Virus record (IMG/VR): IMGVR_UViG_3300035698_001791
Location: 1-25,267 of that record
Length of the DNA stretch: 25,267 bases
DNA from: a virus
Direction: 5' to 3' (one strand)
Made by a program: the position numbers and the translations under genes. The notes under the pieces are model-generated. The model was not told where the DNA came from. It saw nothing but the letters and a program-made list of their open reading frames with translations, and searched no databases. Below are positions 2,816 through 22,738 of this stretch, piece after piece (positions within the stretch are counted from its first letter, which is position 1; the number at the start of each line of letters is the position of its first letter).

Positions 2816-2864
2816 TCCCTTTCAAGGGTATGGTCAGTAGCCGCTGACACTGGTCGGTTGATAC
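2816..2864 (-). repeat. Leader repeat, copy 2 (upstream of gene 2629-2808)
   Basis: Second copy of the 49-base leader; it differs from 2567-2615 at four positions. The hairpin becomes GTCAG-CGGCTA-CTGAC (2833-2848), one closing pair shorter, while CCCTTGAAAGGG keeps the potential to pair with the AAGGG ribosome site. Confidence 0.85.
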
Positions 2865-2869
2865 CACTG

Positions 2870-2880
2870 TATTATTATAG
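2870..2880 (-). promoter_or_regulatory. Candidate promoter element CTATAATAATA
   Basis: The coding strand reads CATCTATAATAATACAG here, between a terminator and the start of a small-gene unit. TATAAT would be a perfect sigma-70 -10 box, but I see no good -35 hexamer at 16-18 bases. The same 11-mer occurs at 22088-22098 in front of the portal gene, also just after a terminator. It could therefore be a phage-polymerase promoter core. Suggestive only. Confidence 0.4.
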
Positions 2881-2903
2881 ATGCGTTAAATTTCCCTCTT
2901 TTT

Positions 2904-3339: not shown

Positions 3340-6300
3340 TTATCGACGGTAGTTGTTCTCTCTGTTCTGCCTGTTTACGCCACCAGCGATCTCAGGCATC
3401 ATCATGACAATCTCCTTACGAGTCTGGCGGGAGACGTCACCTTGTACGTTGATGTTGAAGGTGGAGGTGGAGGAGTTACCACCAGCCCCCTTCAGAAGAC
3501 CATCAACCTTATCAGCAGGGACAACAAGCTCACCAGGTGTCAACATGGTAGGTACAGAATCGATGTCTGTTCTTGTTGTTTCAACTGGTTTGACAATACC
3601 GCCACCGTTTAGCCCGGTAGCAGGTTCCCCGGAGAAGAGACCTAGTAGCCCAGAGAAGAACCCGCCACCGCCACCGCCGACACCGCCAAGATCAGAGAAG
3701 AAGCCCTTGATAGCGTCAAAGGAGCCTTTGAAGGCGTCAACGAAACCGGACAGGTCAATGTTACCTGCCTCGTTACTTACCGCGCCCTTGATAGACTCGC
3801 CCACCTTCTGCCCCAGATCATCTCCAAAGTCGAAGAGTGAACTGAAAATCCCAGTGAAGAATTCTTCCAAGTTCAAGGCCTCAAAGGCAGCATCTACAAA
3901 CGAATTGACAACTGTATCGATAATACGCATACTGATGTCGTCAAGCATGTCAAAGAAGAACTCCTTGATTGTCATAGCTCCAGTGAGGACCGACTTTAGG
4001 CCCTCCTTGAAACTGTTCTGGATACCTTCGGCGTTGTTAACAGCTTCGTTGTAACGCTCTTGTAGACGGATCCTATGCTCCAACTCACTATTCAGTGCCC
4101 TGCTATTATCAATCTCATCGACAGACATGGCACTAAGCTCTTCTTCGATCTCTCGGATACGTAGCAGGTTTTCTAGTTCTTCCTGAACCCCGTCCTGGCC
4201 AAGGGAGAACATTCTTGAGAAGTCAAGGTCACCCCCAAGTCCTTCAAAGGTGGCTTGGAGACCACCCACTGTGCTACTAGCAAGAGTTTCTGCAATAGCT
4301 CGCTGTGAGGCTTCGATTGCATCTTGGGCAGCATTTCGGGCAGCAACCTCATCTAGGGCGAGGCTGTTGAGGTTCTCTTGAGCAGCAGTGTAGAGACCGA
4401 CATTCCTGTAAAGCTCACCAAAGATGTCAGCGCCAAAGCGAGCGGCAACATTGTTCTCCACGGAGAAACCCACGTCAGCGAGCATTGACATGACTTCTTC
4501 AAAGGGTGTTGTAGTATCACCACCGCCACCGCCCACAGAAGGTACTGTAGAAGTATCCAAGGGTGAGCCGACTGCATCAACTAGTCTCTGCCTTGCAGCA
4601 GCTAGCTGCCCAGAGAGTATAGAGTGAAGTGATGCATCTCCTGTACCAGACAGGGATAGTTGTTGAAGACTAAGCGACAAAATATCAACAGCGGAACTTA
4701 GTCGGATGATCTCACTTATGCGGCTTGGGCTAAAGGCCATGATACCGTCGATATCGCTAGTTGTATCAACCTGCTCAAGGGCGTGTTGTAAAGCGCCTTC
4801 CCGATCAATCATACCGCGTGTCAGGGCATTCTGTTTTCCAACAAGCACCCCTAGGCTGCTAGATAGTTGATCAATCCTAACCTTGATAGCATTAAACGCA
4901 TCGGCACCAATACCTTCCTCTAAAAGATCTTGGTTTAATGATTGAAGCTCATTCAGTTTTGCTGCGATGTTTTGGTTTATTGTAGTGATACCTGTACCAA
5001 ACTGGTCCATGTAGTCAACTATAGCGTCATCAGAGGGTAAGAGGTTCAAAACGTCAATACCGAAGTCTTCAAGTCTCTCATTCACCTGTTCAAGTCTTGA
5101 AAGGAGAACCTCTTCTACCCCTTCACCGCCACCAAAGTCGGCAACCAGACCCTCTGCGAAGGTTTCTAGACTGCCCTCGAATAACCGGAGTAGGCGGTCA
5201 CGGGCCGCTGTTAATGCGTCGGCATCCCCAGTCGAAGGGTCGGTTTCAAGGTTATCTAGTGCTGCGGCGTAGTTATCGATCATAGCTTGGATCTCAGCAG
5301 TCGCTTCGTCGAGGCCAAGTTTTGACAGCACGGTCGCCATACGATCTACTTTACCCTCTAGGTCAAAAGAATCTGACAACCCCTCAAGTTCAAGAGCAGC
5401 GGACTTAAAAGCTTCTTCTGACTGTAGGCGGAGAACTAGCCTTTGACCAGCAGCAGCTTCCGTATTTGCTGCTTCAAGATCCTCTACAAGCTTTGACGCA
5501 AGCCCTTTAAGTTGTAAAGGCGAGGTCGAAGTATCATCAAAGATTGCGGTAAAGAAATCGTTAAGTTGTTCATTCAGCTTAACAGAAACGTCTGGGTCCA
5601 AAACTAGACCACTACCCTCTGCTATTCGAAGTTGCTCTAACAAACCGATGAATGCGTCACCAGAGTCACTGCCAGAAGAGTCTTGGGTAAAGGCCTCGTT
5701 GTTCAGAATCTCTGAGATTGCAGAAAGGGGGAGAATCCCCTCCTCAAGAGCGTCACTGAAAGCACTCATCGCAGCAGAAGTTTCCTCTTGAACTTCAAGA
5801 ACACCTAGGCGAGTTGCAAGTATACCCTGGGTCTGAAGCTCACCACCACCAAAGAATCTACCTGCGTTATCAGCAAAGGTCGTAGAGAACAGCTCTCTTA
5901 GTGGAGCTATCAAGAGGTTAGTTTGAGCAGCAGCAGCAGCAGTTTGTCCATCTTCTGTTGGAGGTGCTAGGCTGAGCACTGCATCGCGGGTAAGTAGCAC
6001 TGCTCTCTGAACACGACGAGTTTCCGCTGCAGTTAGATCATGCCCCTCTGCAATTGTCTTCTGAGCATCAGTCAGGATCTGGTTAGTATTCTCTGCTAGT
6101 CGCATAGTGCGAGCAACAGCATCAGGATCAGCACCTTCAAAATCTATTGAATCAATGATACCACTGAAGTTAATTTCGATGTCACCCATGCTTTCAAAAG
6201 AACCCAAAGAGGCCCTAAGCTCTTTACTGATTTTACGCGCTTCACGAGAAGCCACACCGAAAAAGCCTAAAACACCGTCATAGGCATTTCCAAGTTTCTC

Positions 6301-9300
6301 GCCAAAGGAGTCACCTTCACCAAAGATGGCTACTACTAGCAAACCACCAATAGCTATGGCAGCAGCAACGGCGGCAGCGACAGCTGCGATGGCACCGAGC
6401 GTTGTAGCTACTACACCCCCAATGAGAGCAGTAACTCCAGCAAGCATAGAGCCTTGTCCAGCCAAGTGCAGGGAAATTCGTGCAGCAACCGCAGCGATTC
6501 TCATCTTTTCAAAGCCAGCAATAACTATACTTGCTGCTGATTTTACAAAAGAACCTATCCCTTTGAGAGTGAAAGACCCTGCAAGAAGAAGTCCAATCAG
6601 CCCAAGGGGGCTGCTCACAAGGTTGCCAACACTACTTGATAGTTTACCAAGGGTGCTCTCCGCTTCGTCAGCGGTTCCCTCTACAGCAGCATCTGCTTGG
6701 GTTGCTGAAAGTACGAAGATAGCTGCGATAGCTACACCGATTTTATGGCTGTTACGTCTTACAAAGTTGCCGAAGTTCTGGAAAGACCTCGCAGAAGACG
6801 CCATTAGCGCCGCAAAGTTGGTACTAAAAGAAACCCCAAGAGACATGATTGAGGTAATAGCCGAAGCGAAGGCACTCTTAGCGGCGATACCGATAGGAGA
6901 GAACATACCTCCTGCCTTAGAAATTACCCCGGAAAGGCTACTAAACACAGCGGTCAGGTTTGCACCAAGGGTACCACCCAATGTACCACTGAAGGCGGAG
7001 GCAAGGATCGTCTTTACAGAGGTTGCTGCCTGGGTTGCGGCAGTAACTATGGGAGCAAACATGGTTCCAACTGCAGAGTTAGCCCCAGATAGTTTACCAA
7101 AGCTCTTTGTGATACCTGATAGAAGGTCTGCAAAGAAGTTACCACCTAGGGCGGCAGTAAAGGAAGCTCTTGTTGACATCGCAAAGGCTATTGCGCTGGC
7201 TGTAACCCGAGAGAACATAACCCCCGCCTTGTAGCCAAAGGCCTCAAGGTTTTGGAAGGCGCTGATTGCACCTGTAAGCAGTGTTGCCCCCATGTTCCTA
7301 TTAAGAGAACCACTACTCTTTGACCAGGCGACTCCAATCTTTTTCTGAATGGACTTTACCTTCGAGAAACCCTTATCCAGCAGAGCAGAGCTACTGTCGC
7401 CAAAGAGGTAAGTTGCCACCAGACCTCCAGAGATTAGGAGGTCAAGCCCATTCCCAGAACCAGTGAAGACGTTGTAGATTGAGTTGGCAGCTGCGGTTAT
7501 GACACCCATCTTGACTAAAAGATTGCGGCCCTTATCTTTACCAAGGTAAGCCGCCTGATAGAAAGGCACCTTTGGTGGTTTAGGTGCTGTTAGTTTATTA
7601 GGGTTTCCTTTGAGAACGGCGGCTTGGAACAGGGCGTTAGACTTAAGGTAAGCTTTGTTCTCAACATCGAGGGCCTTTCTCTGAGACTTTACAGAGGAAC
7701 TGATAACACCTCTGAACTTTGAGCTAAGGACAAAGGCGGTAAGGGCACCAGAAATTAGTCCAAATACAGCGGCACCAATACCAGACTTTGTGAAGGCACC
7801 TGCAACAAGACCAGGCAACCCTGTTAGGGAATCTGCAAGACCCCTACCAAAACCAACAACCGCCTGTCCGAGTGCTCGGATGATTTCAGGGATGTTTTGT
7901 ATGATAAGCTCGATAAACTGACCAGCAGCAGAACCGAGGCCTTTCGCAAAGTCACCAAACATACCAGAATCAAGGAAACCATCGCCGATAGAATCAACCA
8001 GAACAAGACCCAGTGTTGCGAGTAGACCACCACGAAGGAAGGTAGTAAGCCCAAGAGACAAGCTCTTACTGAAGAAACCCACCAACTTAGCACCGAAGAT
8101 TGCCGCGATGATTGCGGTAAGTCCTGGGCTAATTTCGTTGATTGACTTGTAGATTTCAGCGCCTAGTTTGGAAATAGGTTTAGCAATAGAGGTGAAAAGA
8201 TTGGCGAGACCGTCCTTTAGGTAGCCAATAGGGTTCGCAATGAAGCTATTAGCTTCCATCTTGAAGTCGATTTCAAAGGTCAGGTTTCTTGCCTTATCAC
8301 CAATAGAGGTAAAGATACCTGAGAAAGCAGACCTAGCCTTCAAATAAGCCGCTTCAAAGTTATCGGAAACACCTGTAGTGAACCTCTTTACAAGTTCACT
8401 CGCTTTTGACAGGTTTGTCTGTGCAAGATACAACACTTGTTCCATTGTGTCGGTCCACCAAGAGTTACCAATGACTTGGTCATAGACCCAGAAGAAGGCC
8501 CGTTCAATCTCAGTTAGCACACTCAGTATGACACTCCGTACTGCAAGCATCTTCTCAGTGCCAATTACCTTTACAGAATTGAAAAGCAGTGTCACTTGCT
8601 TAGTTACTTCCCCAATAGCCCTTGCTGTGTCGTTAGAAATAGCCTCACCTACACGACCAACACCTTGGCCAAACTTATAGATGGACACCATTACGGTGCG
8701 GTACGAGGAGAGTGTCTTGATATTCTTAACCACCTCTTCGAGGAGGTCGTTTGACAATCCAAGTAGGAAAGAGAAAGTTTCCATAGAAGTTGGTCTGAAG
8801 CGAGCAACGGACTGGTTGAGGAGGCCTGCCTGAACAAGTAACCCAGTCAAAGAGTTCTTAGCTGGCAGGAAGATGTTTGTGACCTTAGCACCTAGGTTAA
8901 CCCAACGACGACCATAAAGATCAATAGCTTCAGCAATGTCATCCATCGCTGTACGCGCTTCCTCGATACTATCTGCTTGGAAAAGCCTTGTGATAGCACC
9001 TCTTGAACCACCGAAAGTCATACTGTCTTTGAAGTTTGAGAAGGCGAGGGATAGCTTCCTCGTCATAGTCAGTGCTTTGAGTAGGTGCTTAACCAACCCC
9101 GCCCCAATTAAGTCTGAGAAAGTTCTAGTCGGTAAGATAACCGTATAAATTGCGTTAGATACACGACCAGCGATGGCACCGAGGATGTTAGCTACACCCC
9201 CAAGGATAGTGATGGTGTTCTCTGCAAACCGCTGTACAGAGGCTATCTTGGCATAGAGGCTAGTCTCGATAAGAGCAGAGTCCCTCACTATGAAGGTAGT

Positions 9301-10089
9301 TAACCTCTGGAAGCCAGAGGTGAAGACTGCTGTGAAACCTAGTGTCTTACTAATATCCCCTTTTAGTCGATTAAGTGTGTCTGATAGCACAACAAAGGCA
9401 CCAGAGGAAGTAGCTTCCAGGATTTCAAACTCAGCGTTGAGCGCATCAGTCTGGTTCAGAAGGGCGTTGAAAACAACATTAGTCGTCAAACCACCCTCAG
9501 CGGCGAGAGCACGAAGATCGCCCATACCTATCTGAAGTTCGTCTGAAATGGCACGAGCAATACGAGGTGCTTGCTCTAGTACCGAGTTAAGTTCTTGTCC
9601 CCGTAGTGTACCAGAAGCTAGACCCTGGCCAAGCTGGAAGATAGCCGCACTAGCGGACTCTGCTCTACCACCAGAGAGGGTGACAGCCTTGGCTACACTA
9701 GAAGTTGCCTTCTCAATGTCTTGTACAGAAGCTCCCGCATCCCTCAGCGCTAGTCCAAAACGGTTGAAAGTTTCAGCGGCTGTATTAACAGACACCCTTG
9801 CATTACGGGCGATCGCGTAGAGATTGTTTAGGCTCGCACCTAGTTGGTCTGTTCTACCAGTCACTAGCGCAATTCTGTTTTCTAGTTCTGTAAGGCTATC
9901 TGTGGCCTTGTTTATACCCCTAACCGCCACGGTTACGCCGAAGGCAGAAGCAAGCCCCCCTGCGAGACGGGTTAGGCTACGGGTGACATCTTTTGATCGT
10001 TTGTCAATGTTGGAAACAGAGGTTTCAAGTCGTTTCAAGTCCTGACGCGCAGAGCGAGTATCTGCATTTACTCTGATATTTACTGCCAT
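3340..10089 (-). CDS. Tail tape measure protein (2,249 aa)
   Basis: ATG 10089 has a perfect AAGGAG 8 bases upstream, so I use it rather than an in-frame start at 10146, which would lie inside a hairpin. The N-terminal 250 or so residues (helices with RSARQDLKRLETSV, then a region ending GLASGTLRGQELNSVLEQAPRIA) are typical lambda gpH-like tape-measure sequence. The centre has many long hydrophobic and Ala/Gly-rich helical stretches. Near the C-terminus (about 2177-2191) is DSVPTMLTPGELVVP, a signature of tape-measure C-termini. The protein sets tail length; at roughly 1.5 Angstrom per residue, 2,249 residues suggest a tail of over 300 nm. It follows the chaperone genes, which coat it during assembly. 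No peptidase motif was recognised. Confidence 0.96.
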   Translation of the reverse strand: MAVNIRVNADTRSARQDLKRLETSVSNIDKRSKDVTRSLTRLAGGLASAFGVTVAVRGINKATDSLTELENRIALVTGRTDQLGASLNNLYAIARNARVSVNTAAETFNRFGLALRDAGASVQDIEKATSSVAKAVTLSGGRAESASAAIFQLGQGLASGTLRGQELNSVLEQAPRIARAISDELQIGMGDLRALAAEGGLTTNVVFNALLNQTDALNAEFEILEATSSGAFVVLSDTLNRLKGDISKTLGFTAVFTSGFQRLTTFIVRDSALIETSLYAKIASVQRFAENTITILGGVANILGAIAGRVSNAIYTVILPTRTFSDLIGAGLVKHLLKALTMTRKLSLAFSNFKDSMTFGGSRGAITRLFQADSIEEARTAMDDIAEAIDLYGRRWVNLGAKVTNIFLPAKNSLTGLLVQAGLLNQSVARFRPTSMETFSFLLGLSNDLLEEVVKNIKTLSSYRTVMVSIYKFGQGVGRVGEAISNDTARAIGEVTKQVTLLFNSVKVIGTEKMLAVRSVILSVLTEIERAFFWVYDQVIGNSWWTDTMEQVLYLAQTNLSKASELVKRFTTGVSDNFEAAYLKARSAFSGIFTSIGDKARNLTFEIDFKMEANSFIANPIGYLKDGLANLFTSIAKPISKLGAEIYKSINEISPGLTAIIAAIFGAKLVGFFSKSLSLGLTTFLRGGLLATLGLVLVDSIGDGFLDSGMFGDFAKGLGSAAGQFIELIIQNIPEIIRALGQAVVGFGRGLADSLTGLPGLVAGAFTKSGIGAAVFGLISGALTAFVLSSKFRGVISSSVKSQRKALDVENKAYLKSNALFQAAVLKGNPNKLTAPKPPKVPFYQAAYLGKDKGRNLLVKMGVITAAANSIYNVFTGSGNGLDLLISGGLVATYLFGDSSSALLDKGFSKVKSIQKKIGVAWSKSSGSLNRNMGATLLTGAISAFQNLEAFGYKAGVMFSRVTASAIAFAMSTRASFTAALGGNFFADLLSGITKSFGKLSGANSAVGTMFAPIVTAATQAATSVKTILASAFSGTLGGTLGANLTAVFSSLSGVISKAGGMFSPIGIAAKSAFASAITSIMSLGVSFSTNFAALMASSARSFQNFGNFVRRNSHKIGVAIAAIFVLSATQADAAVEGTADEAESTLGKLSSSVGNLVSSPLGLIGLLLAGSFTLKGIGSFVKSAASIVIAGFEKMRIAAVAARISLHLAGQGSMLAGVTALIGGVVATTLGAIAAVAAAVAAAIAIGGLLVVAIFGEGDSFGEKLGNAYDGVLGFFGVASREARKISKELRASLGSFESMGDIEINFSGIIDSIDFEGADPDAVARTMRLAENTNQILTDAQKTIAEGHDLTAAETRRVQRAVLLTRDAVLSLAPPTEDGQTAAAAAQTNLLIAPLRELFSTTFADNAGRFFGGGELQTQGILATRLGVLEVQEETSAAMSAFSDALEEGILPLSAISEILNNEAFTQDSSGSDSGDAFIGLLEQLRIAEGSGLVLDPDVSVKLNEQLNDFFTAIFDDTSTSPLQLKGLASKLVEDLEAANTEAAAGQRLVLRLQSEEAFKSAALELEGLSDSFDLEGKVDRMATVLSKLGLDEATAEIQAMIDNYAAALDNLETDPSTGDADALTAARDRLLRLFEGSLETFAEGLVADFGGGEGVEEVLLSRLEQVNERLEDFGIDVLNLLPSDDAIVDYMDQFGTGITTINQNIAAKLNELQSLNQDLLEEGIGADAFNAIKVRIDQLSSSLGVLVGKQNALTRGMIDREGALQHALEQVDTTSDIDGIMAFSPSRISEIIRLSSAVDILSLSLQQLSLSGTGDASLHSILSGQLAAARQRLVDAVGSPLDTSTVPSVGGGGGDTTTPFEEVMSMLADVGFSVENNVAARFGADIFGELYRNVGLYTAAQENLNSLALDEVAARNAAQDAIEASQRAIAETLASSTVGGLQATFEGLGGDLDFSRMFSLGQDGVQEELENLLRIREIEEELSAMSVDEIDNSRALNSELEHRIRLQERYNEAVNNAEGIQNSFKEGLKSVLTGAMTIKEFFFDMLDDISMRIIDTVVNSFVDAAFEALNLEEFFTGIFSSLFDFGDDLGQKVGESIKGAVSNEAGNIDLSGFVDAFKGSFDAIKGFFSDLGGVGGGGGGFFSGLLGLFSGEPATGLNGGGIVKPVETTRTDIDSVPTMLTPGELVVPADKVDGLLKGAGGNSSTSTFNINVQGDVSRQTRKEIVMMMPEIAGGVNRQNRENNYRR

Positions 10090-10111
10090 GTGTTTTCTCC
10101 TTAATAAGAAT

Positions 10112-10153
10112 GCCCCCGACAGATACTCCCTTATTTGGGAGACCATCGGGGGC
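10112..10153 (-). promoter_or_regulatory. Two-tier hairpin between the gp10-like gene and the tape-measure gene
   Basis: Outer arms GCCCCCGA/TCGGGGGC (10146-10153 and 10112-10119) pair perfectly over 8 bases. Inside, CTCCC/GGGAG (10137-10141, 10126-10130) encloses a 6-base loop. ATTCTTATT follows, then the AAGGAG of the tape-measure gene. It may be an attenuator or an mRNA processing or stability element lowering tape-measure dosage. It is not a classic terminator because the T run is interrupted. Confidence 0.6.
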
Positions 10154-13223: not shown

Positions 13224-14342
13224 TTAAGCGTGGAAGATTGGCAAGATACCAAGGTTCAGAGCATTCACTTTACGCGTGTAAGCTGTTTTAGCAGCCAGGT
13301 CAGCGTTAGAAGCAAAGGCAGTAGTCGCGCCAGCCCAGTCATAACCCATTGGGTGCATGATGTAACCATAACGATACCAGATGTTAGTCGAACCACCACC
13401 AGTGTAGGAAGCCGCATCACGGTCAACTTCAACAGGGGTTGGGACGCTAACAGGAGCAAAGGAGATTGCCTCTGGCTTGATGAGGAAAGTACACTTCGAA
13501 GAGCGAGTATTCAGGTCACCAGCAGCCGCACCAGCAATCATCTGGTCAGCACGAGTTGGAATCAGGCGGAACTTACCACCAAAGATTGTCGAGAACTCAA
13601 GGTTACCATCAGTAACAGTTGTATCGTCAACGAGGTTAGCAGCACGGAACTCAGCCATGTTTTCAGGCGAAGTAACCATGTACATGTAGTCTGGTTCGTA
13701 GTCTTTAAAGCCCATACCAACTGCACGGAAAAGACGCTCACCACGGGAAGCGCCAACAGCTGTGCTGTCGAACAACCGACGCTGGTCGCCAACTACTGTA
13801 GCAGCATCGCCGAATTCACCTGCGGCGTTGATGTCTACAAAGAAGCCTGTAGCGGCAGTGTCTGCATCAGTATCAAAATCGAGCATACCACCAGCACCAG
13901 CACCACCAAAGTCACCGAGGGCAACTTCAGAACCAGCAACACCTTTAAGAACGGACAACAGGCCGTTGTGCTCATCTTGGGCACGGACTTCAGAGAAGTC
14001 ACGAGCGATCTTCAGGAGACCGTCCTGCTTAGAAACAACTTCCTGCAAGTTTACCTGCTTAGCACCGAAGGTACGAACAGTCTTGATGTAGGAGCTGACT
14101 TCAGTCGTGATGTCCGTGTAAGTACCATCCGCAGCGTTCGAAAGCGAAGCTACGTTGATGTTAGCCGACAAAGGCTGGTACCAGCGCATTTGACCGATAA
14201 AGCTTTCGCCATCGGCGGTAATGTCGTCACGTTGACCAACAATACCTGTCGAGTTCAGTTTACGAGCAGCCGTGTAGGCTTCATCGCTATAGGCAGAAAT
14301 CGCGATGGCGATGTTCTGAAAGTCTGTATTTGTAATAGTCAT
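13224..14342 (-). CDS. Major capsid protein (372 aa)
   Basis: 372 residues placed between scaffold and adaptor genes. Features expected of an HK97-fold coat protein include a helical N-terminus, a long spine-helix-like region (KTVRTFGAKQVNLQEVVSKQDGLLKIARDF at about 87-116), a strand-rich axial domain and a C-terminal segment (GYIMHPMGYDWAG at 326-338, then NLGILPIF at 363-370). There is no N-terminal delta domain, consistent with a separate scaffold gene, and I see no prohead protease gene in the window. ATG 14342 follows AATAAGGAAAACACCC. Highly expressed coat genes often have this ribosome-site quality. Confidence 0.86.
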   Translation of the reverse strand: MTITNTDFQNIAIAISAYSDEAYTAARKLNSTGIVGQRDDITADGESFIGQMRWYQPLSANINVASLSNAADGTYTDITTEVSSYIKTVRTFGAKQVNLQEVVSKQDGLLKIARDFSEVRAQDEHNGLLSVLKGVAGSEVALGDFGGAGAGGMLDFDTDADTAATGFFVDINAAGEFGDAATVVGDQRRLFDSTAVGASRGERLFRAVGMGFKDYEPDYMYMVTSPENMAEFRAANLVDDTTVTDGNLEFSTIFGGKFRLIPTRADQMIAGAAAGDLNTRSSKCTFLIKPEAISFAPVSVPTPVEVDRDAASYTGGGSTNIWYRYGYIMHPMGYDWAGATTAFASNADLAAKTAYTRKVNALNLGILPIFHA

Positions 14343-15218: not shown

Positions 15219-15659
15219 TCATAGACCTATGTGACTGTAATCGTTGTCACAGTATGGTAGTTTTAAAAGTTGGCAGAGGTTGTTATGATAAACACCAACA
15301 TCCTTCGCACAACTTCTAATTGAGACCCCTTGCTTCATCTTTCTCAAGGTGTAGCGCAAGTCTGCAAAAGTTATCTTATTCAGGTTTCTATTGAACTCAG
15401 GTTTGTACTCTGCTATGAGACGGCCTTCAATGAAGCGTATCTCTGCAAAATCCCTTGTTTCGTATAGAATCTTTACAAAGTTATTATTTCCATTCTTTAG
15501 TGCAGAAGCAATCAACCACTCGTAGTGGTCTTCACTCCTCTTCAAAAACTGGAAAGCTCTGTGAACTTGGCCGCTCCCTAGGTATACTAGTGTACCGTCA
15601 CTCTCATAGTGACCATACACAACCCAAGTTTGGTCTGCGTTCTTTACTCTGTTACTCAT
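15219..15659 (-). CDS. GIY-YIG family endonuclease, free-standing homing-like (146 aa)
   Basis: The N-terminal half fits the GIY-YIG nuclease fold: VVYGHY (13-18) and VYLGSG (25-30) form the two Tyr motifs, Arg34 follows in QVHRAF, and Glu79 in FIEGRLIAEYKPEFN is the metal-binding Glu, with Asn90 after it. The C-terminal part (LRKMKQGVSIRSCAKDVGVYHNNLCQLLKL, 105-134) looks like a helix-turn-helix for DNA binding. It is wedged between the MuF-polymerase gene and the scaffold gene, with its AAAGGAG overlapping the stop region of the former. It is probably a selfish homing endonuclease in the head operon. Confidence 0.82.
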   Translation of the reverse strand: MSNRVKNADQTWVVYGHYESDGTLVYLGSGQVHRAFQFLKRSEDHYEWLIASALKNGNNNFVKILYETRDFAEIRFIEGRLIAEYKPEFNRNLNKITFADLRYTLRKMKQGVSIRSCAKDVGVYHNNLCQLLKLPYCDNDYSHIGL

Positions 15660-15668
15660 GGTTCTCCT

Positions 15669-18600
15669 TTACGGCCCAATTCCATAGAAATATGTACCAT
15701 CGGGCGTTGAAAGTATTTCTGCGCGAGTGATCGCGTTTGGTGGGTCGATTAGGCCAAGGCGTTTTGCCTCGTCTAAGAGATTGTGGTAGGTTGTTCGGGA
15801 CATCCCCGAGCGGCGCATTTCTAGAAGGGTGCGCCGGATAGTATCACCTTCGAGAGCATCCGCATAGATGGTTCTCAAGGCAGTTCTAGCACGATCAGCT
15901 TCAGCAATGTTAGTGAAGAAGGCGTCGTGAATTGTTCCTGTTGCAACGTTGTTCTCTCGACCCCACAAGTGGAAGCGTCTAACAATCACTGCATCATTAC
16001 TGTGGTTCCCATTGACACCGAGGCCAATAGAGGCTCTCGAAACCGAGCCTTTCCCTAGTAGTCTTCCGTCCTCAACAGAGGATTCAATGATGTTCATAAC
16101 CTGCCTACCAGTGACAGGGTCTCTGAAGGCAATCCGCTCTTGGATCTTTGGTCTATAGCGTTGCATCATGATCTTACCATCAAAGGTAACCCAGGGGATG
16201 TCAACACTCTGTGTTTCTTGTACGTAGTCTTTAGCTACTCTTTTCCAGAAGTTGATGAAGTTAGTTGTGACAGGTGCCCTACGGGCCAAGTTAGCGGACA
16301 TAATACGAGACACAGCCTCAAAGTCCCTTGGTGTAATGATACCTTGCCTTGCGTTCATAATCTTCTCTACAAACTCTGCTGTAGAATTGTGGATGGCCAT
16401 AGCCTCTGTCATCAAATGACGTCCAGCTGGGACGCTATTATTAACAAGTTCCACAAGTTCTTGCCTAAAAGCAGTTAGTTCGCTTACTGTTTGAGTAGCC
16501 CTTAGGCGAGTAGCCACCTTGATCTGACCATCAATTATTCGAAGTTGTTCACTGAGGTCAGCCTTGGTGATAGTAATGAAACCCTTGCTTTGAAGGATTG
16601 ACTGAAGCTTGCCAGCAACGTTAGCTGTCTTTGTGGCTTCACCAGCACCGTAGAAAGTTACCATATTTTGTGCTTTCGCGGCTTTTGCCAAGTCTTCCCA
16701 AGTTAGGTTTGCATTCCTTAGGGCAGCAATCCTCAAGAACTCGGGGTCATTGATAGTATCCATTGCAACTAGGTCATACAACCTGTTCTTTTGTGTTGTC
16801 GCAAGAACATTAGAAGACATAGCAATAGAGCGGTCACCTGTTGAAAGAGCAATGATCTGTGCCCCTGAAGAAGAGGCATCGTTCTCAATCATTAGCCTTG
16901 TTTGGTAAGAGGACAACCGTTGTAGGTTTCCAAAGTTACCCTCAACATGGTCGTAGATACGAGCATACTCAAGCGAGAGTCTAGCGAGTTTAGCTACCTC
17001 TGGTCCTTCAAGTCCACGGATAAGGGGGTGTTCAAGAAATTCTCTTACACGACGATCTCGTTGGGTCTTCTGTTGAAGTAGACGGCCAAGTTCTAGTAAG
17101 GCCTTCTCGTTTCTCCGAAAGATAGAGACACGGCCTGACTGGGTGAGAGCCTCATCAGCTGGACCCAAGAGGGCACCGATCTGAATACGAAGCTCACGTA
17201 CACTAGCCGCGTCTATGTTAACAGCCCTGCCAGAGTTTAGGAAGGGTCTAACAAGCTCACCTCCTGTAGGAGTAAGGTAGCCACGGTGGTAAACTCGCCC
17301 ACGGGAGTCTAAGAAAGCCTGCGTCCTAAAAGGAGCGTCTCTCAAACGGTGGTACTTTGCTGTAGCCATAAGTCCATAACCTTGCTCTCCTCGGGCGAGG
17401 ATCTCATGCCTGAACTCATTTAGGCTGTCATAGTAGGCAGCACGTCCGCGTGGATCTCGAAACCTTGTCAGGTAGTCCATGAAGTCAAAGTATTCACTAT
17501 CAACAGCATACTCCACGTTTGTAACATGGTTCATCATCTGCGCCATCTCTCGATCGATCTGTTTAGGATCGTAGTCGGCAAACTTATTTGCGGAGATGAT
17601 AGGGATTCCTGTGTCATTGCCTCGGGCATCAACAAAGGTTTTCTTACCAGCAGTTACATAGAGACGATCTCTAGAGGAGGTAACCCCTAGTCGCCTAGCA
17701 ATAGTGGCTCTACGCTCGGCTTCCTGTAGCCTTAGGAGGTTCTTGTCAATGACAACAACTTCGCGACTAATAGTATCGCCCCAACCGCCAGAAGCGCGTC
17801 CTGTGTCCAGATCTAGAACACCTCTACGAACTTTACCTCGGAAACCAATCCGGATCATATTCTGATCTTTCATGTAATCAAGTATCTTTGAACCCTCTAC
17901 ATGATAGGACCTAATGGTGCGGGTAACACCAGGAAGATTGCCAATATCCTCTGCGAGTTGCCTGCCAATAGCAATAGCAAGGCTGTCATAGTCTGTTGAC
18001 TGTCCAGAAGCAACCAGCTTAAAGGACTTAGTTAGGGCTGCGAGAGCCTTCGTGTCTAGGATTTTTGAGGTAGGTGCTCTGCTAAAAACCAGGAACTCTA
18101 GGTCGAGAACTCTTCGGACCTGGGCGTTCAGCTTGGAAACTTGCGTTGTCCACCAGGAGTCAGAAGGTTCCACCAGCTCACCATAAGCCTTCTTGAATTT
18201 ACGGTAGGCCTTCCTTAGAGGTACAATCTTGTCCAAGAGGTCACTCTTGAACTGTTTAACCTGCTTTTGTGTGACAAGGAACTTAGAGAAGTAAGTTCGC
18301 ATAGGGGAACGACCAGTAAGGTACATTCTCTGTGCGAGTTTAGTTCCCTCAGTACGACGCCAAGCATCGATAAAACGTTGGTCCCTTAGGTGATTTCTGG
18401 CAAGGTCATCAAGGTTGTAGTACTTACCCATAATCTGAACTTGAGGGACGTCTGCACTCAGATACCTTACAAACATCTCTGATCTTGCTCTTGAGCGTGT
18501 GTCAAGGAGACGTGATACGTTCTGTACAGCAAACCTATTCTCAGCACGGATAACAGCGGTGAGGTCACCCCAAGGGAGTTTATCATGATTGTAACGCTGG

Positions 18601-20048
18601 AATACCACACGTAGGTTCTCAAGGGCCACAGTCTGTTGGTTCAGAGATATACGATCGTCAAGCCCCGCCACAGCTGACTCAATGAAATTCTTCTGATCCA
18701 AGGTTAGATCTTTCGAGTTCCTCAAAAAGTCAATACGCTCTTGATAGAGGTTAAAGTCAGGGTCATAAAGTAGGCTGTTCTTGATTTCTCCTGTCAAAGG
18801 GTCCGCTGAGAAGTTACGCTCATCAAACTCATTACCAACACGTCGGCGTGAAGCTTGCTTACCCACCAAAGAGGTGCCTCTGTAGTTTGTCAGAGCTAGG
18901 GTGGAGTTAAAGTCGTCAGAGTCATGAATGAAGAGGTTTCTCAAGTCTTCCTTGTGGCGGGAACTGTTGATTAACATTGCCGGAGTTTTAGCTGCCACAG
19001 GGAGGGCGGCGGCTTTCACTGCCTGCCTAGGGCGGAAAACAGCAGTAGCTGCAGCGGCTCGGGCGCGTAAGGCTTGGATACTAAGAACAACCCCTTTTGG
19101 AGAGATGAACTGTTCAGCACGAAGCTTACCCTGTCTGAAGAGATCAGCTGTAGTAGCACCACCAAGCAGCTTATCTTGTATAACGTTAGTCTGCCGTCTC
19201 AGGAAGTCTGAGAAGGAGGTGATAGTGGCGGGGTTCCCGTTAAAGTCAGCAACATCTAGAGCGTTGACAGCACCCTTTTTGAGTCTAGCTGAAGCAGCCA
19301 TCGCCTGGAGGTCTTCCTTACTCTTCAAAACAGGGATCATCGTAGAACGACAATTCCAGTGTAGGGGTGGGCGATACTGTTTTTCGTCTAGGTCATAAAC
19401 CTTCCCGTTATGGTAGCTACAAATAGAGCTTGTTCGGGAGTCAAGAATAGCAGTGAACATGTAGCCAGCAAGGATGTCCTTGTTAGCCTCAATTACTTTG
19501 TCCATAGCAGCAGTTTGTGTTGAGGTAATTGCAGTCCGGGTTAGTGTCCGGGCCTGGTGTTCTGTGATCTTCGTTGTCTTTAGGACATCTTTGATGATAT
19601 CGTTGTTTGATAGTCCGTTTGCTAGTCCACTTCGGACCTTGTTTCTAATACGTACTAACTCTCCAGAAGAGATGTTCGCTAAGCCCGTTGAAAGTGTCCG
19701 GGGGCCTCGGATGGCAGGGCCAGTAATCTCAGCAAGAAGCTCACGAGTCCTTGGGCGAGTAACCTTGAAAAAGGAGCGAGCCTCTCTATGGAGGTTATCG
19801 GAGTGGAAGTCAAGCTCTGCTGTAGAAAACTCTCTCAAACCCCGACCGGAGCTAGCATTGATTTCTTTTGCAAAGCGTGTTATCTCTGGTTGGACATCAG
19901 CGCGGATGTTTCCGGAGAGGAGGTCACGAAGGCGCTTTCGGTGCCTACGGATGATTCTCCCATTTCCTACTTGTAAGCCTTCTTCATAAAGGCGTACGTC
20001 TGTCATGTGATCAATAATACGATCAAAGACTCTATCATTAACGTTCAT
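15669..20048 (-). CDS. MuF minor head protein fused to a single-subunit T7/N4-like RNA polymerase (1,459 aa)
   Basis: One uninterrupted frame; ATG 20048 follows ATAGGAGAACTAG. Residues about 130-245 are a MuF/SPP1-gp7 head domain: LTRTAITSTQTAAMDK, LDSRTSSIC (202-210) and PPLHWNCRST (227-236) with Cys210 and Cys233. An Ala-rich linker spans about 320-357. The C-terminal half carries the single-subunit RNA polymerase set: DSRGRVY (914-920; T7 D421/R425), motif A NDASSSGAQ with Asp1057 (T7 D537), motif B KAQNMVTFYGAG with Lys1125, Met1129 and Tyr1133 (T7 K631, M635, Y639, same spacing), GNHSND with His1349 (T7 H784) and motif C TIHDAF with His1374-Asp1375 (T7 H811-D812). The T7 Arg627 position is Ala1121, next to Lys1122. 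It follows the portal gene, as MuF genes do. I infer a virion-borne, injected polymerase that transcribes early genes. No ribosome site separates the two halves (checked at Met358). Confidence 0.93.
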   Translation of the reverse strand: MNVNDRVFDRIIDHMTDVRLYEEGLQVGNGRIIRRHRKRLRDLLSGNIRADVQPEITRFAKEINASSGRGLREFSTAELDFHSDNLHREARSFFKVTRPRTRELLAEITGPAIRGPRTLSTGLANISSGELVRIRNKVRSGLANGLSNNDIIKDVLKTTKITEHQARTLTRTAITSTQTAAMDKVIEANKDILAGYMFTAILDSRTSSICSYHNGKVYDLDEKQYRPPLHWNCRSTMIPVLKSKEDLQAMAASARLKKGAVNALDVADFNGNPATITSFSDFLRRQTNVIQDKLLGGATTADLFRQGKLRAEQFISPKGVVLSIQALRARAAAATAVFRPRQAVKAAALPVAAKTPAMLINSSRHKEDLRNLFIHDSDDFNSTLALTNYRGTSLVGKQASRRRVGNEFDERNFSADPLTGEIKNSLLYDPDFNLYQERIDFLRNSKDLTLDQKNFIESAVAGLDDRISLNQQTVALENLRVVFQRYNHDKLPWGDLTAVIRAENRFAVQNVSRLLDTRSRARSEMFVRYLSADVPQVQIMGKYYNLDDLARNHLRDQRFIDAWRRTEGTKLAQRMYLTGRSPMRTYFSKFLVTQKQVKQFKSDLLDKIVPLRKAYRKFKKAYGELVEPSDSWWTTQVSKLNAQVRRVLDLEFLVFSRAPTSKILDTKALAALTKSFKLVASGQSTDYDSLAIAIGRQLAEDIGNLPGVTRTIRSYHVEGSKILDYMKDQNMIRIGFRGKVRRGVLDLDTGRASGGWGDTISREVVVIDKNLLRLQEAERRATIARRLGVTSSRDRLYVTAGKKTFVDARGNDTGIPIISANKFADYDPKQIDREMAQMMNHVTNVEYAVDSEYFDFMDYLTRFRDPRGRAAYYDSLNEFRHEILARGEQGYGLMATAKYHRLRDAPFRTQAFLDSRGRVYHRGYLTPTGGELVRPFLNSGRAVNIDAASVRELRIQIGALLGPADEALTQSGRVSIFRRNEKALLELGRLLQQKTQRDRRVREFLEHPLIRGLEGPEVAKLARLSLEYARIYDHVEGNFGNLQRLSSYQTRLMIENDASSSGAQIIALSTGDRSIAMSSNVLATTQKNRLYDLVAMDTINDPEFLRIAALRNANLTWEDLAKAAKAQNMVTFYGAGEATKTANVAGKLQSILQSKGFITITKADLSEQLRIIDGQIKVATRLRATQTVSELTAFRQELVELVNNSVPAGRHLMTEAMAIHNSTAEFVEKIMNARQGIITPRDFEAVSRIMSANLARRAPVTTNFINFWKRVAKDYVQETQSVDIPWVTFDGKIMMQRYRPKIQERIAFRDPVTGRQVMNIIESSVEDGRLLGKGSVSRASIGLGVNGNHSNDAVIVRRFHLWGRENNVATGTIHDAFFTNIAEADRARTALRTIYADALEGDTIRRTLLEMRRSGMSRTTYHNLLDEAKRLGLIDPPNAITRAEILSTPDGTYFYGIGP

Positions 20049-20081: not shown

Positions 20082-20155
20082 TGGCAAGGGTAGGAGGAAT
20101 CGAACCCCCACACGCGGTTTTGGAGACCGATGCTCTTCCATTGAGCTATACCCCT
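20082..20155 (-). tRNA. tRNA-Trp (anticodon CCA)
   Basis: A complete cloverleaf on the minus strand. Acceptor AGGGGTA/TACCCTT has one G-T pair; the D-arm is GCTC/GAGC. The anticodon loop is CTCCAAA, giving CCA, in a 4-5 bp stem. The T-arm is GGGGG-TTCGATT-CCTCC. Discriminator G is followed by an encoded CCA tail (20082-20084). It reads UGG. The gene lies 33 bases before the MuF-polymerase ATG. Confidence 0.94.
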
Positions 20156-20402: not shown

Positions 20403-20476
20403 TGGTTGCGCAGCTGGGAGTTGAACCCAGAGTAAGAGATTATGAGTCTCCCGTGTTACCATTACACTACCGCGCG
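20403..20476 (-). tRNA. tRNA-Met type (anticodon CAT) with C1-A72 mismatch
   Basis: The minus strand gives acceptor CGCGCGG/CTGCGCA, TA at 8-9, D-arm GTGT/ACAC, anticodon arm GGAGA-CTCATAA-TCTCT (anticodon CAT), variable TACT, T-arm CTGGG-TTCAACT-CCCAG, discriminator A and encoded CCA. The first acceptor pair is a C-A mismatch, a hallmark of bacterial initiator tRNA. However the anticodon stem lacks the three G-C pairs and position 11-24 is T-A as in elongators. Initiator, elongator Met and lysidine-modified Ile2 all remain possible. Confidence 0.92.
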
Positions 20477-20482
20477 TTAAAG

Positions 20483-22060
20483 TTATTCTTCTACAGTGAC
20501 CTGATCGTTACCAGCGCCAGGTGTAAAGCCAAGAGGATCTGTTTGGATCTCTTCAATAGCATTGTCATCATCGTAGTCAGCAGGGAGGAAGTCGTTGTAC
20601 TTCGCAATGCTAATAAAGACAGTGCGAGGGATAAGACCTTGCTGATACCACTCGGAAACAAGCCGCATGGCAGCGTCACCACCAACCATAGGTGAGAAGT
20701 CAGAAGACATCTGAAAGTCAACATCGTTAGCTGACAAGCTAAGGTTGTAGCGCCAGTTAAGCATGAAGGCAATCACCTCCTGCATGGTACCAGACACCTT
20801 AGCGTTCAAGGCACCCAACTGAGCTGTTTGGGAAGCATTACGGATCTCCAAGGCAACCCCAGAAGCGGCTGGCTCAGGGGTTAGCATACGGATGCCCATC
20901 TTAGCCATCTCTTCAACAGTAGACTCGATTGCCCGATCCATGTCTGCCAAGGCAGCAGTGGGGGTCTCCAAGACAGTAATATCGTCGCCTTGACGGACCC
21001 TAAGCCAAGAGCCTAGACCAGAACCTACGAGGGCAGTGAAGTCCTCATCATTCATGTCGGATTTGACAATAGGGGTGTAGGTTGCAGCACCTAAGAGTAG
21101 GTGGTTACGACGAGAAACCTTGTTGTAAAGAGCAATCTCTCTCTCAATTAGGGGCATGAGAATAGGTTCAATAGGCTCGATCTGACCATTCAAAGGCCAA
21201 GCGGGGATTTTAGTAAGTCTCTCACCAAACATCTGTGGCGTAGCGGAGTCAACGAGCTTGAAGCCACTCTCAGCATAGGTGTCTTTATACTCTTGTCTCA
21301 CTTCACCGTTGTTGAAGGTGATAAGCCCACTACCGTCTGTCTTTTGATAAGTGTCGATCATGAAGTAACCATCATCATCAAGGTAATGGTCTACCACGGT
21401 ATCAACATACTCAGGGTGCCAAGGGTTATCAGTACCAAACTTGGTAGTGAGGCTCCTGGTGACAAACCGAGCCAGAGTCTTGATACGGGTAACTGGGTGG
21501 ACCGCCGTCTGAGTGTTAATTACAGTTTCTGCTTCCAGAAGGATTGGGTAAGGTGCAATACTCTCTCGTTGTTCAGGTGTCATGCTGTCCCAAGTAGGTG
21601 TATCTACAGAAGGATAGTCAACATAGACCCAACCTCGGGAGGTTTGGAGTTCTTCCCAAAGTGCATTATCTAGAAAGTTGAAAAGAGAACCACCATCTAA
21701 GGTGAAGTTTGTCTCCAACCAGTCAGCGGCTTCCTCAGGCACTCCCTCGGGTAGGTTCAAGTCAGACTTCTTCCTAAGAAGGGCGCTGATGAGGACCTTT
21801 GAATACTGAGAAACAAGTCCAGGAAGCTCTGCTTCTGTTTTATAGAAATTATACTGACCTTGCGACATAGAAGGTGAGAAAGGGATGAGTAGGTTTGCGT
21901 TTTCCATATCAGATACAAACTCGTCATGGGCTAAGGCAGTAGCTTGCCCTTGTAGGATGGCTCTTGAACGTTTCCACAGAGGTTTGATCGAGAGATAGCT
22001 ATCTGTAGGGTCAGCTACCGACTTTTTTAAAGCCTTTGGTGACTTCTTACTTTGAGCCAT
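20483..22060 (-). CDS. Portal protein, DUF4055 family (525 aa)
   Basis: 525 residues. The N-terminal region (KPLWKRSRAILQGQATALAHDEF at about 26-48, a loop ending LLIPFSP, then GQYNFYKTEAELPGLVSQYSKVLISALLRKK) has the arrangement of DUF4055 phage portal proteins: a 'W...r..L.G' helix, then a 'Y..Y...A.......t...l.g..fR..' helix. A long central helix bundle (IALYNKVSRRNHLLLGAATYTPIV) and a C-terminal acidic tail follow. The portal is the dodecameric DNA gate and binds terminase, MuF protein and adaptor. ATG 22060 follows AAAAGGAGACTTAA. It opens the head operon just after a terminator and a structured leader; two tRNA genes separate it from the MuF gene. Confidence 0.87.
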   Translation of the reverse strand: MAQSKKSPKALKKSVADPTDSYLSIKPLWKRSRAILQGQATALAHDEFVSDMENANLLIPFSPSMSQGQYNFYKTEAELPGLVSQYSKVLISALLRKKSDLNLPEGVPEEAADWLETNFTLDGGSLFNFLDNALWEELQTSRGWVYVDYPSVDTPTWDSMTPEQRESIAPYPILLEAETVINTQTAVHPVTRIKTLARFVTRSLTTKFGTDNPWHPEYVDTVVDHYLDDDGYFMIDTYQKTDGSGLITFNNGEVRQEYKDTYAESGFKLVDSATPQMFGERLTKIPAWPLNGQIEPIEPILMPLIEREIALYNKVSRRNHLLLGAATYTPIVKSDMNDEDFTALVGSGLGSWLRVRQGDDITVLETPTAALADMDRAIESTVEEMAKMGIRMLTPEPAASGVALEIRNASQTAQLGALNAKVSGTMQEVIAFMLNWRYNLSLSANDVDFQMSSDFSPMVGGDAAMRLVSEWYQQGLIPRTVFISIAKYNDFLPADYDDDNAIEEIQTDPLGFTPGAGNDQVTVEE

Positions 22061-22140: not shown

Positions 22141-22174
22141 GATGACGATAATAAGGACAGAAAACAGCCCCTTC

Positions 22175-22195
22175 ATCATTAGGCGGCAGTATTTT
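22175..22195 (-). repeat. 21-base direct repeat, copy 1 (duplicate of a gene end)
   Basis: Matches 22297-22317 with one mismatch. The second copy encodes the last residues and stop (NTAD-stop) of the candidate spanin. This copy would read QNTAA-stop in a 16-codon frame, so it looks like a leftover of a partial duplication flanking the terminator. Confidence 0.75.
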
Positions 22196-22200
22196 GTGCC

Positions 22201-22296: not shown

Positions 22297-22317
22297 ATCA
22301 TTAGTCGGCAGTATTTT
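22297..22317 (-). repeat. 21-base direct repeat, copy 2 (end of candidate spanin gene)
   Basis: Contains the final codons and TAA of the gene at 22301-22738. Its partner at 22175-22195 lies 122 bases away, beyond the terminator. Confidence 0.75.
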
Positions 22318-22738
22318 TGGATAAAAATGTTTTCTTCCCCCAAATCTGTTCTGGGCTGGGTAATCTGTAAAGAAAATAAGACCAAAGTAGGAAGAGGGCG
22401 ATGATACCAGCAAAGATCTTTGGATCAAGCTCATTGATGGTGACCTTACCCTCTCCGGAGTTGTCCACCTTTCGGTTTGTTGTCTCCTGGGAAATAGTGC
22501 CAGTGTTCCCCTCTCCCCGTACAACGGGACGAAGGGTTGTGTTTAGTGCGGTGTTGTTTGCCACTTCTCTACCGATGACAGCGGTGGCGTCTATACCACC
22601 GTCACTACCCCCGAGGCCAATAGCCCCGAGAGCAGCGTCTGTAGCAATGTTCTTAGCTGCCCCGCATCCAGTCACCAACAGCAGGCTGGCGGAAACCAAA
22701 AGCAGCAAGAGTAAAGACCGTAGTCGGCCAAATAACAA
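22301..22738 (-). CDS. Candidate unimolecular spanin (lipoprotein with C-terminal membrane anchor, 145 aa)
   Basis: Start TTG 22738 is supported by AGAGGAG 7 bases upstream and a stop codon two codons before it in the same frame. The N-terminus is a lipoprotein signal: Arg residues, LLLLLLVSASLLL, then the lipobox VTGC with Cys25 and Gly26 (no Asp at +2, so outer-membrane sorting). About 80 periplasmic, Thr/Val/Gly-rich residues follow, then one membrane helix (FAGIIALFLLWSYFLY, about 109-124) and a basic tail. A lipid anchor at one end and an inner-membrane helix at the other is the u-spanin plan of phage T1 gp11 (131 aa), which fuses the inner and outer membranes. It follows endolysin and holin and overlaps the holin by 86 bases. 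Confidence 0.75.
   Translation of the reverse strand: MLFGRLRSLLLLLLVSASLLLVTGCGAAKNIATDAALGAIGLGGSDGGIDATAVIGREVANNTALNTTLRPVVRGEGNTGTISQETTNRKVDNSGEGKVTINELDPKIFAGIIALFLLWSYFLYRLPSPEQIWGKKTFLSKNTAD

Follow-up and report, generated by a model that had tools for sequence, protein, structure and literature searches.

Virion-borne single-subunit RNA polymerases (RNAPs) are known from N4-like short-tailed phages. The N4 virion RNAP (vRNAP; gp50 of the Schitoviridae) is a packaged T7-family polymerase of ~3,500 amino acids (aa) with flanking injection and encapsidation regions, and it transcribes the early genes, that of a second polymerase included. We know of no MuF part in N4 vRNAP. The N4 system as described comprises the virion polymerase, hairpin promoters with a 3-nt loop, and RNAPII (PMC4496689). 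MuF head domains that carry an extra functional domain at the C-terminus are also known (PMC5512222, PMC5576092), the linked domains named in the excerpts of these papers being RNase, 2H phosphoesterase, RelA/SpoT and toxin domains, and the excerpt of the former predicts a role of such fusions in effector delivery (PMC5512222). The subject here is a gene that joins a MuF head domain to a T7-type RNAP (MuF-RNAP) in an IMG/VR virus record of 25,267 bp (IMGVR_UViG_3300035698_001791, positions 1-25,267; hereafter the window), which is probably a fragment. The MuF head protein probably delivers the polymerase as a virion enzyme, in a two-polymerase cascade like that of N4.

The fusion gene (15669..20048, minus strand) starts with ATG and encodes 1,459 aa in a single uninterrupted open reading frame (ORF), the frame that an initial annotation of this DNA had reported with no strand given. 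The N-terminal head-morphogenesis part (residues 1-335; 19044..20048, minus) matches phrog_241 of PHROGs (E 1.7e-54), and within it the MuF domain, initially placed at residues ~130-245, is located by Pfam at residues 134-238 (PF04233, E 3.4e-15, 57.2 bits vs a curated cut-off of 29.6; 19335-19649, minus). A conserved linker of roughly 210 residues follows (residues 336-543; 18420..19043, minus); it is without a match in a Pfam search, and its residues 401-450 rank among the most conserved stretches of the whole protein. The remainder (residues 544-1459; 15672..18419, minus) is assigned to a T7-type RNAP by comparison of an AlphaFold2 model with T7 RNAP in Foldseek and VIA. Profile searches place RNA_pol (PF00940) at residues 1042-1413 (E 3.5e-9, exceeding the curated Pfam cut-off) and the RNA polymerase family phrog_414 at residues 911-1410 (E 1.9e-22, PHROGs).

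The AlphaFold2 model covers residues 330-1459 (pLDDT 80.3, pTM 0.72). Foldseek aligns it with T7 RNAP at E 6.5e-18, and VIA returns T7 RNAP at Z 30.9 (596 residues aligned, rmsd 7.1) and 8dh1 at Z 30.2 (500 aligned, rmsd 3.4), the matched model residues 215-1128 corresponding to protein residues 544-1457. N4 mini-vRNAP, the other structure with which the initial annotation proposed a comparison, scores Z about 17. The same kinship is seen by profile: hhalign matches MuF-RNAP to a combined profile of T7, SP6 and RNAPII at 97.3% (E 2.7e-11), where RNAPII is the name used, by analogy with N4, for the separate T7-like RNAP of these phages. A polymerase-core profile run against the PDB finds T7 RNAP chains in colinear order (best E 8e-5), with N4 chains not among the finds. 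A structure search with a model of the MuF part plus linker (residues 1-560) retrieves helical bundles only, none of them significant. Judged by sequence and model, residues 544-1459 are a complete T7-type single-subunit RNAP, which is predicted to synthesize RNA.

The catalytic residues cited initially (Asp914, Arg918, Asp1057, Ala1121, Lys1125, Met1129, Tyr1133, His1349, His1374 and Asp1375) all lie at the cited positions, in T7 RNAP order and colinear with T7. Save for Ala1121, these residues, together with Gly1134, are invariant in 41/41 sequences of the clade to which the window belongs (clade 1) and in 20/20 sequences spanning both MuF-RNAP clades; in a larger alignment (A4) Met1129 is conserved at 90% or more, and the other catalytic residues show no variation. 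The DxxGR motif (Asp914-Arg918; 17295..17309, minus) keeps its Asp and Arg in both clades, the Gly being variable among MuF-RNAPs. Motif A is marked by Asp1057 (16878..16880, minus), and the segment from His1349, the equivalent of T7 His784, to motif C His1374-Asp1375 (15924..16004, minus) aligns with HSQD and HDSF of T7. Motif B (Lys1125-Met1129-Tyr1133-Gly1134; 16647..16676, minus) is conserved in both clades; a predicted helix (1117-1133) ends with Lys1125-Tyr1133, and Gly1134 comes next, an arrangement like that of the T7 O helix. The motif A-B spacing is 68 residues (94 in T7) and that from motif B to the His784 equivalent is 224 (153 in T7), both taken from anchored motifs because motif B was misplaced when all polymerases were aligned together with MAFFT. 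The Ala1121 noted initially at the position of T7 Arg627 is found in all of clade 1, whereas clade 2 has Arg in 14/17 and Gln in 3/17 sequences. This is natural variation at a catalytic-site residue, and the lack of Arg627 is particular to one clade and no sign of decay.

Motif B is also a place of interruption. In one relative (L057 8894-9136) the polymerase is interrupted at motif-B codon 1130 by a group I intron (RF00028, E 7.2e-22), and in EBPR siphovirus 1 (L084 28911-29762) the polymerase is broken at codon 1130 around an HNH endonuclease gene. Breaks at about codons 1125-1131 are found in G026 and G035, and further breaks or inserts in several clade-2 records.

At least 513 MuF-RNAP relatives are present in IMG/VR, the search being one that the initial annotation had suggested for other MuF proteins with a C-terminal PF00940-like domain. 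All 40 full-length relatives that were checked have one uninterrupted frame and a conserved C-terminus. The sequenced isolates DSS3_VP1 and DSS3_PM1, which are roseophages of the Naomviridae, encode the full-length protein at 59% identity over 1,459 aa. A second clade of 48 loci surrounds EBPR siphovirus 1, whose MuF-RNAP is 30% identical and split into pieces; the two clades are only 30-40% identical to each other. Between the window and L002, pN is 0.12-0.14 and pS 0.67-0.80, with non-synonymous change strongly suppressed in every part of the protein; dN/dS values from this pair are rough because the synonymous sites are near or at saturation. Because 40 relatives are uninterrupted and non-synonymous change is suppressed, the presence of MuF and RNAP in one frame is neither chance nor a frame join, and the relatives rule out a frameshift between the two halves.

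A tree built from 202 columns anchored on the motifs, N4 vRNAP not included, unites the MuF-RNAPs of the two clades in a single branch (100/100), to which RNAPII, T7 and SP6 do not belong. The fusion therefore looks old, with a single origin among the sampled sequences, and the tree lends no support to the idea that MuF-RNAP is a recent duplicate of the RNAPII of the same phages. Pelagibacter phage Kolga (L202) has a related 633-aa MuF protein without the polymerase part (17153-19054) as well as an RNAPII-like gene (5564-7852); its MuF protein possibly represents the state without the fusion. Two MuF-RNAPs carry an in-frame insert of ~126-130 aa near residue 250, just past the MuF core (L069 7206-7585 and L074 10738-11129), which has no convincing match in Pfam, and a similar insert near residue 250 is likely in L098 and L102.

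MuF-RNAP is not a member of the N4 vRNAP family, as it has MuF where N4 vRNAP has its flanking regions, and it keeps T7 residues that N4 vRNAP lacks. By alignment, MuF-RNAP retains the equivalents of T7 Asp421, His784 and His811, where N4 vRNAP has Thr, Gly and Phe. The architecture of N4 vRNAP is likewise not found: the protein is 1,459 aa long, with MuF at the N-terminus and the polymerase running to the C-terminus. The initial annotation had likened the polymerase part to the ~1,100-residue central part of N4 vRNAP, a comparison that needs revision, since the T7-like part spans ~916 residues (544-1459) after the ~210-residue linker and resembles T7 more closely than it does N4 vRNAP (Z 31 vs 17). 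With fold and motifs thus closer to T7, MuF-RNAP looks like a separate solution and not an N4 relative.

A second polymerase is encoded by longer relatives of the window. A PF00940 gene apart from the MuF gene occurs in 11/19 records tested (G001-G004 and G006-G012, 36-104 kb); the remaining 8/19, all of 27-44 kb, have MuF-RNAP only. DSS3_VP1 also encodes RNAPII (gp080), to which the RNAPII of L105 (first 316 aa seen) is closest (66%).

Two classes of promoter-like motif accompany these genes. In clade 1, the early motif (class ii) is AAAAAGTGAGAAAA-N4-GGCATCTATAATGA, conserved over 27 bp. Its exact 22-base pattern was found in 79 stretches of viral contigs, which give 81 non-redundant sites, and a single time among 84,980 genomes of bacteria and archaea. 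Bases outside the pattern, on which the search itself imposed no selection, are also conserved, with about 1-1.8 bits just upstream; the spacer TAA and the following TGATA carry 0.9-1.4 bits. Among the class-ii records tested, of 18-75 kb (n=30), MuF-RNAP is present in 22, RNAPII in 23 and at least one of them in 30/30. Where an RNAPII start lies in the same locus, the class-ii site shares the strand of RNAPII and precedes it by 0.8-7 kb in 62/62 cases, which are not all independent because some loci overlap or share one genome. A perfect hairpin of at least 5 bp directly follows 50/81 sites, vs a mean of 1.4 and a maximum of 4 in 50 shuffles; about ten different stems are seen, and the conserved bases lie upstream of the hairpin. 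Since 31/81 sites are hairpin-less, class ii is not taken to be explained entirely by hairpin promoters of the N4 type. In the early region of clade 2, GCGGAAAA-N5-(C/T)ATCTTATATGAA recurs at 12 sites in five genomes (~0.8 expected by chance for the searched core), and the distance from the ATCT block to the G/AAA block equals that of the clade-1 motif. The similarly spaced clade-2 motif can be written CGGAAAA-N5-YATCTTATATGAA; a pattern scan gives 52 stretches, and the clade-2 MuF-RNAP is present in 22/26 long records with the motif.

The other class (class i) varies between phages and sits ahead of structural genes. In DSS3_VP1 the class-i motif is TAATAGGKTRCGTTAAAGARGGGG; each of the 12 sites found lies on the coding strand, and 8/12 are intergenic vs ~6% intergenic DNA by the analysis's own gene calls. 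The type of class-i motif tracks the RNAPII lineage: the VP1 type is found in DSS3_VP1 and L105, and another in the window, L057 and G001. Two copies lie upstream of the portal gene of the window, namely AAAATACTGCCGCCTAATGATGAAGGGG (22168..22197, minus), which is also present in G001 (4 sites) and L057, and AAAATACTGCCGACTAATGA (22298..22319, minus), the tandem arrangement being as in L057. The window also holds a diverged copy of the class-ii family motif, AAAAAGAGGGAAATTTAACGCATCTATAAT, downstream of the tape measure gene (2869..2903, minus), directly after which comes the short hairpin ATAC-AGTG-GTAT (2860..2873, minus). Similar leaders, each with a hairpin and then GTATCAACCGA(C/T)CAGTGTCAG..., occur in the window at 2611-2624 and 2860-2873, ahead of neighbouring small genes, with the class-ii core in just one of the two.

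In the proposed mechanism, the MuF part would dock MuF-RNAP at the portal, inside the head, and the polymerase would be ejected together with the DNA through the long tail. MuF-RNAP would then read the class-ii early motifs, which precede the RNAPII gene on its coding strand, so that RNAPII is made, and RNAPII would in turn read the class-i motifs ahead of the structural genes. Such a cascade would be N4-like and reached separately in long-tailed phages, with promoters that are probably double-stranded and T7-style, not hairpins of the N4 type. MuF-RNAP is the candidate reader of class ii because this class precedes RNAPII and its design is common to both MuF-RNAP clades. The injected virion polymerase for early transcription envisaged in the initial annotation is thus retained in part: the fusion and the T7 fold stand, while injection and an early role have indirect support from the portal-side MuF part, a separate RNAPII as in N4, and an early motif ahead of RNAPII.

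Several points weigh against this mechanism. Motif B is left unaligned by hhalign because the A-B spacing differs from that of T7, and it rests on the K-x3-M-x3-Y-G pattern, the helix-end position and conservation. The pairing of motifs with polymerases is inferred from position, conservation and exclusion, and a comparison of specificity loops is weakly favourable and of little weight, the RNAPII loop boundaries being misplaced. The ~160 kDa protein would need unfolding to cross a long siphovirus tail. The chief weakness is that clade-1 class ii contains a perfect TATAAT, the sigma70 -10 hexamer, and so could be read by the host RNAP. In that event the host enzyme would make RNAPII, as in T7, which itself depends on the host RNAP for early transcription, and MuF-RNAP would be injected for another task, such as pulling in the DNA by transcription. 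This alternative is unlikely, as the -35 hexamer is absent (no TTGACA, the conserved bases there being AAAAGT) and a start ~7 bases after TATAAT would land inside, and cut, the hairpin found after 50/81 sites, both of which argue instead for MuF-RNAP on class ii. Moreover, TATAAT is not conserved in clade 2, which has TTATAT yet keeps the spaced G/AAA and ATCT blocks, and the exact class-ii motif is nearly absent from bacterial genomes.

A polymerase that is active but not injected, being made late to transcribe late genes while MuF merely tethers it to the assembling head, would accord with a gene that sits among late structural genes, and injection is itself inferred. However, RNAPII is already present for the late genes and is suited by the class-i motifs, while MuF proteins are virion components whose fusions, in the excerpt cited above, are predicted to deliver effectors (PMC5512222); a purely late role is accordingly rather improbable. 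That the polymerase part has become a catalytically dead structural or DNA-binding module is suggested by the Ala of clade 1 at the T7 Arg627 position, an argument weakened by the Arg in most clade-2 sequences. The other catalytic residues are invariant in two clades, and introns and breaks fall at the motif-B codon in both clades, such places being typical of highly conserved enzyme sites; a dead module is therefore very improbable. An assembly chimera of two genes has a negligible likelihood, given that the same full-length protein is found in hundreds of independent contigs and in the isolates DSS3_VP1 and DSS3_PM1. Delivery of MuF-RNAP from the virion, followed by the two-polymerase cascade, is the preferred account. 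The broader picture, in which a widespread and mostly uncultured family of long-tailed phages has a head-borne, MuF-fused T7-type RNAP of N4-independent origin, a cascade of two polymerases that use two private classes of promoter, and a ~160 kDa enzyme that passes through the tail, is favoured on balance and with some reserve.

The neighbours of the MuF-RNAP gene are those of a long-tailed phage. Directly upstream lies the portal protein gene (20483..22060, minus; phrog_145, E 1.3e-43; DUF4055 by Pfam), with two tRNA genes between, and downstream is the major head protein gene (13224..14342, minus; phrog_247, E 3.2e-26). The same-strand neighbours also include head-tail and tail proteins, among them a 2,268-aa tape measure protein that indicates a long tail (3340..10146, minus; PF20155, E 1.1e-48). 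The two tRNA genes that separate portal from MuF-RNAP are tRNA-Trp (20082-20155) and tRNA-Met (20403-20476); tRNA-Asn occupies the corresponding place in DSS3_VP1, and three tRNAs lie just ahead of the MuF-RNAP gene of L057. Between the MuF-RNAP gene and the head gene that follows lies a 146-aa ORF (15219-15659), whose similarity to homing endonucleases is only weak (phrog_314, E 0.008).

If the proposed mechanism is correct, MuF-RNAP would represent a second, separate route to the virion-polymerase strategy, one taken by a family with hundreds of members in the environment. It would explain how transcription starts in these phages, with concrete early and late promoters predicted, and would make the delivery of a large enzyme by a long-tailed phage testable. 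The new T7-type polymerases and their private promoters could serve as orthogonal tools, and a gene now labelled only 'head morphogenesis' would be re-annotated. No description of the MuF-RNAP fusion was found in the literature, as covered by open-licence papers and exclusive of the original DSS3_VP1 paper.

Compared to known systems, MuF-RNAP shares with T7 RNAP the fold, the DxxGR motif, motifs A and C and His784, as well as promoter-like motifs of comparable length. It differs from T7 RNAP in its fusion to a head protein, in the Ala for Arg627 of clade 1, in the shorter A-B and longer B-His784 spacings, and in its deep separate branch. Similarly to N4, longer MuF-RNAP phages encode a second T7-like RNAP separately, and, if the model holds, MuF-RNAP works like N4 vRNAP. 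With polyvalent proteins and MuF polymorphic toxins it has in common a MuF head domain bearing an extra functional domain; by contrast, the domains named for MuF effector proteins in the excerpts cited are those listed at the outset (RNase, 2H phosphoesterase, RelA/SpoT and toxins). The closest counterparts are the head proteins of DSS3_VP1 and DSS3_PM1, which are the same full-length fusion in the same portal-MuF-major head order, DSS3_VP1 also having a second RNAP gene. The DSS3_VP1 head protein is encoded by locus KNU84_gp108, and the laboratory host of this phage is Ruegeria pomeroyi DSS-3. The window may belong to the Naomviridae: within its 25 kb, MuF-RNAP is 59% identical to that of DSS3_VP1 and lies in the same local gene order. 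DSS3_VP1 differs in its dU-DNA genes, which were not found in most relatives tested (dCMP deaminase in only 2/15 records, and a YfbR-like protein in 2, below cut-off only), such that dU-DNA is set aside as a general reason for carrying the polymerase. In the records of both isolates the protein is labelled 'head morphogenesis' or 'minor head protein-like protein', with the polymerase unmentioned.

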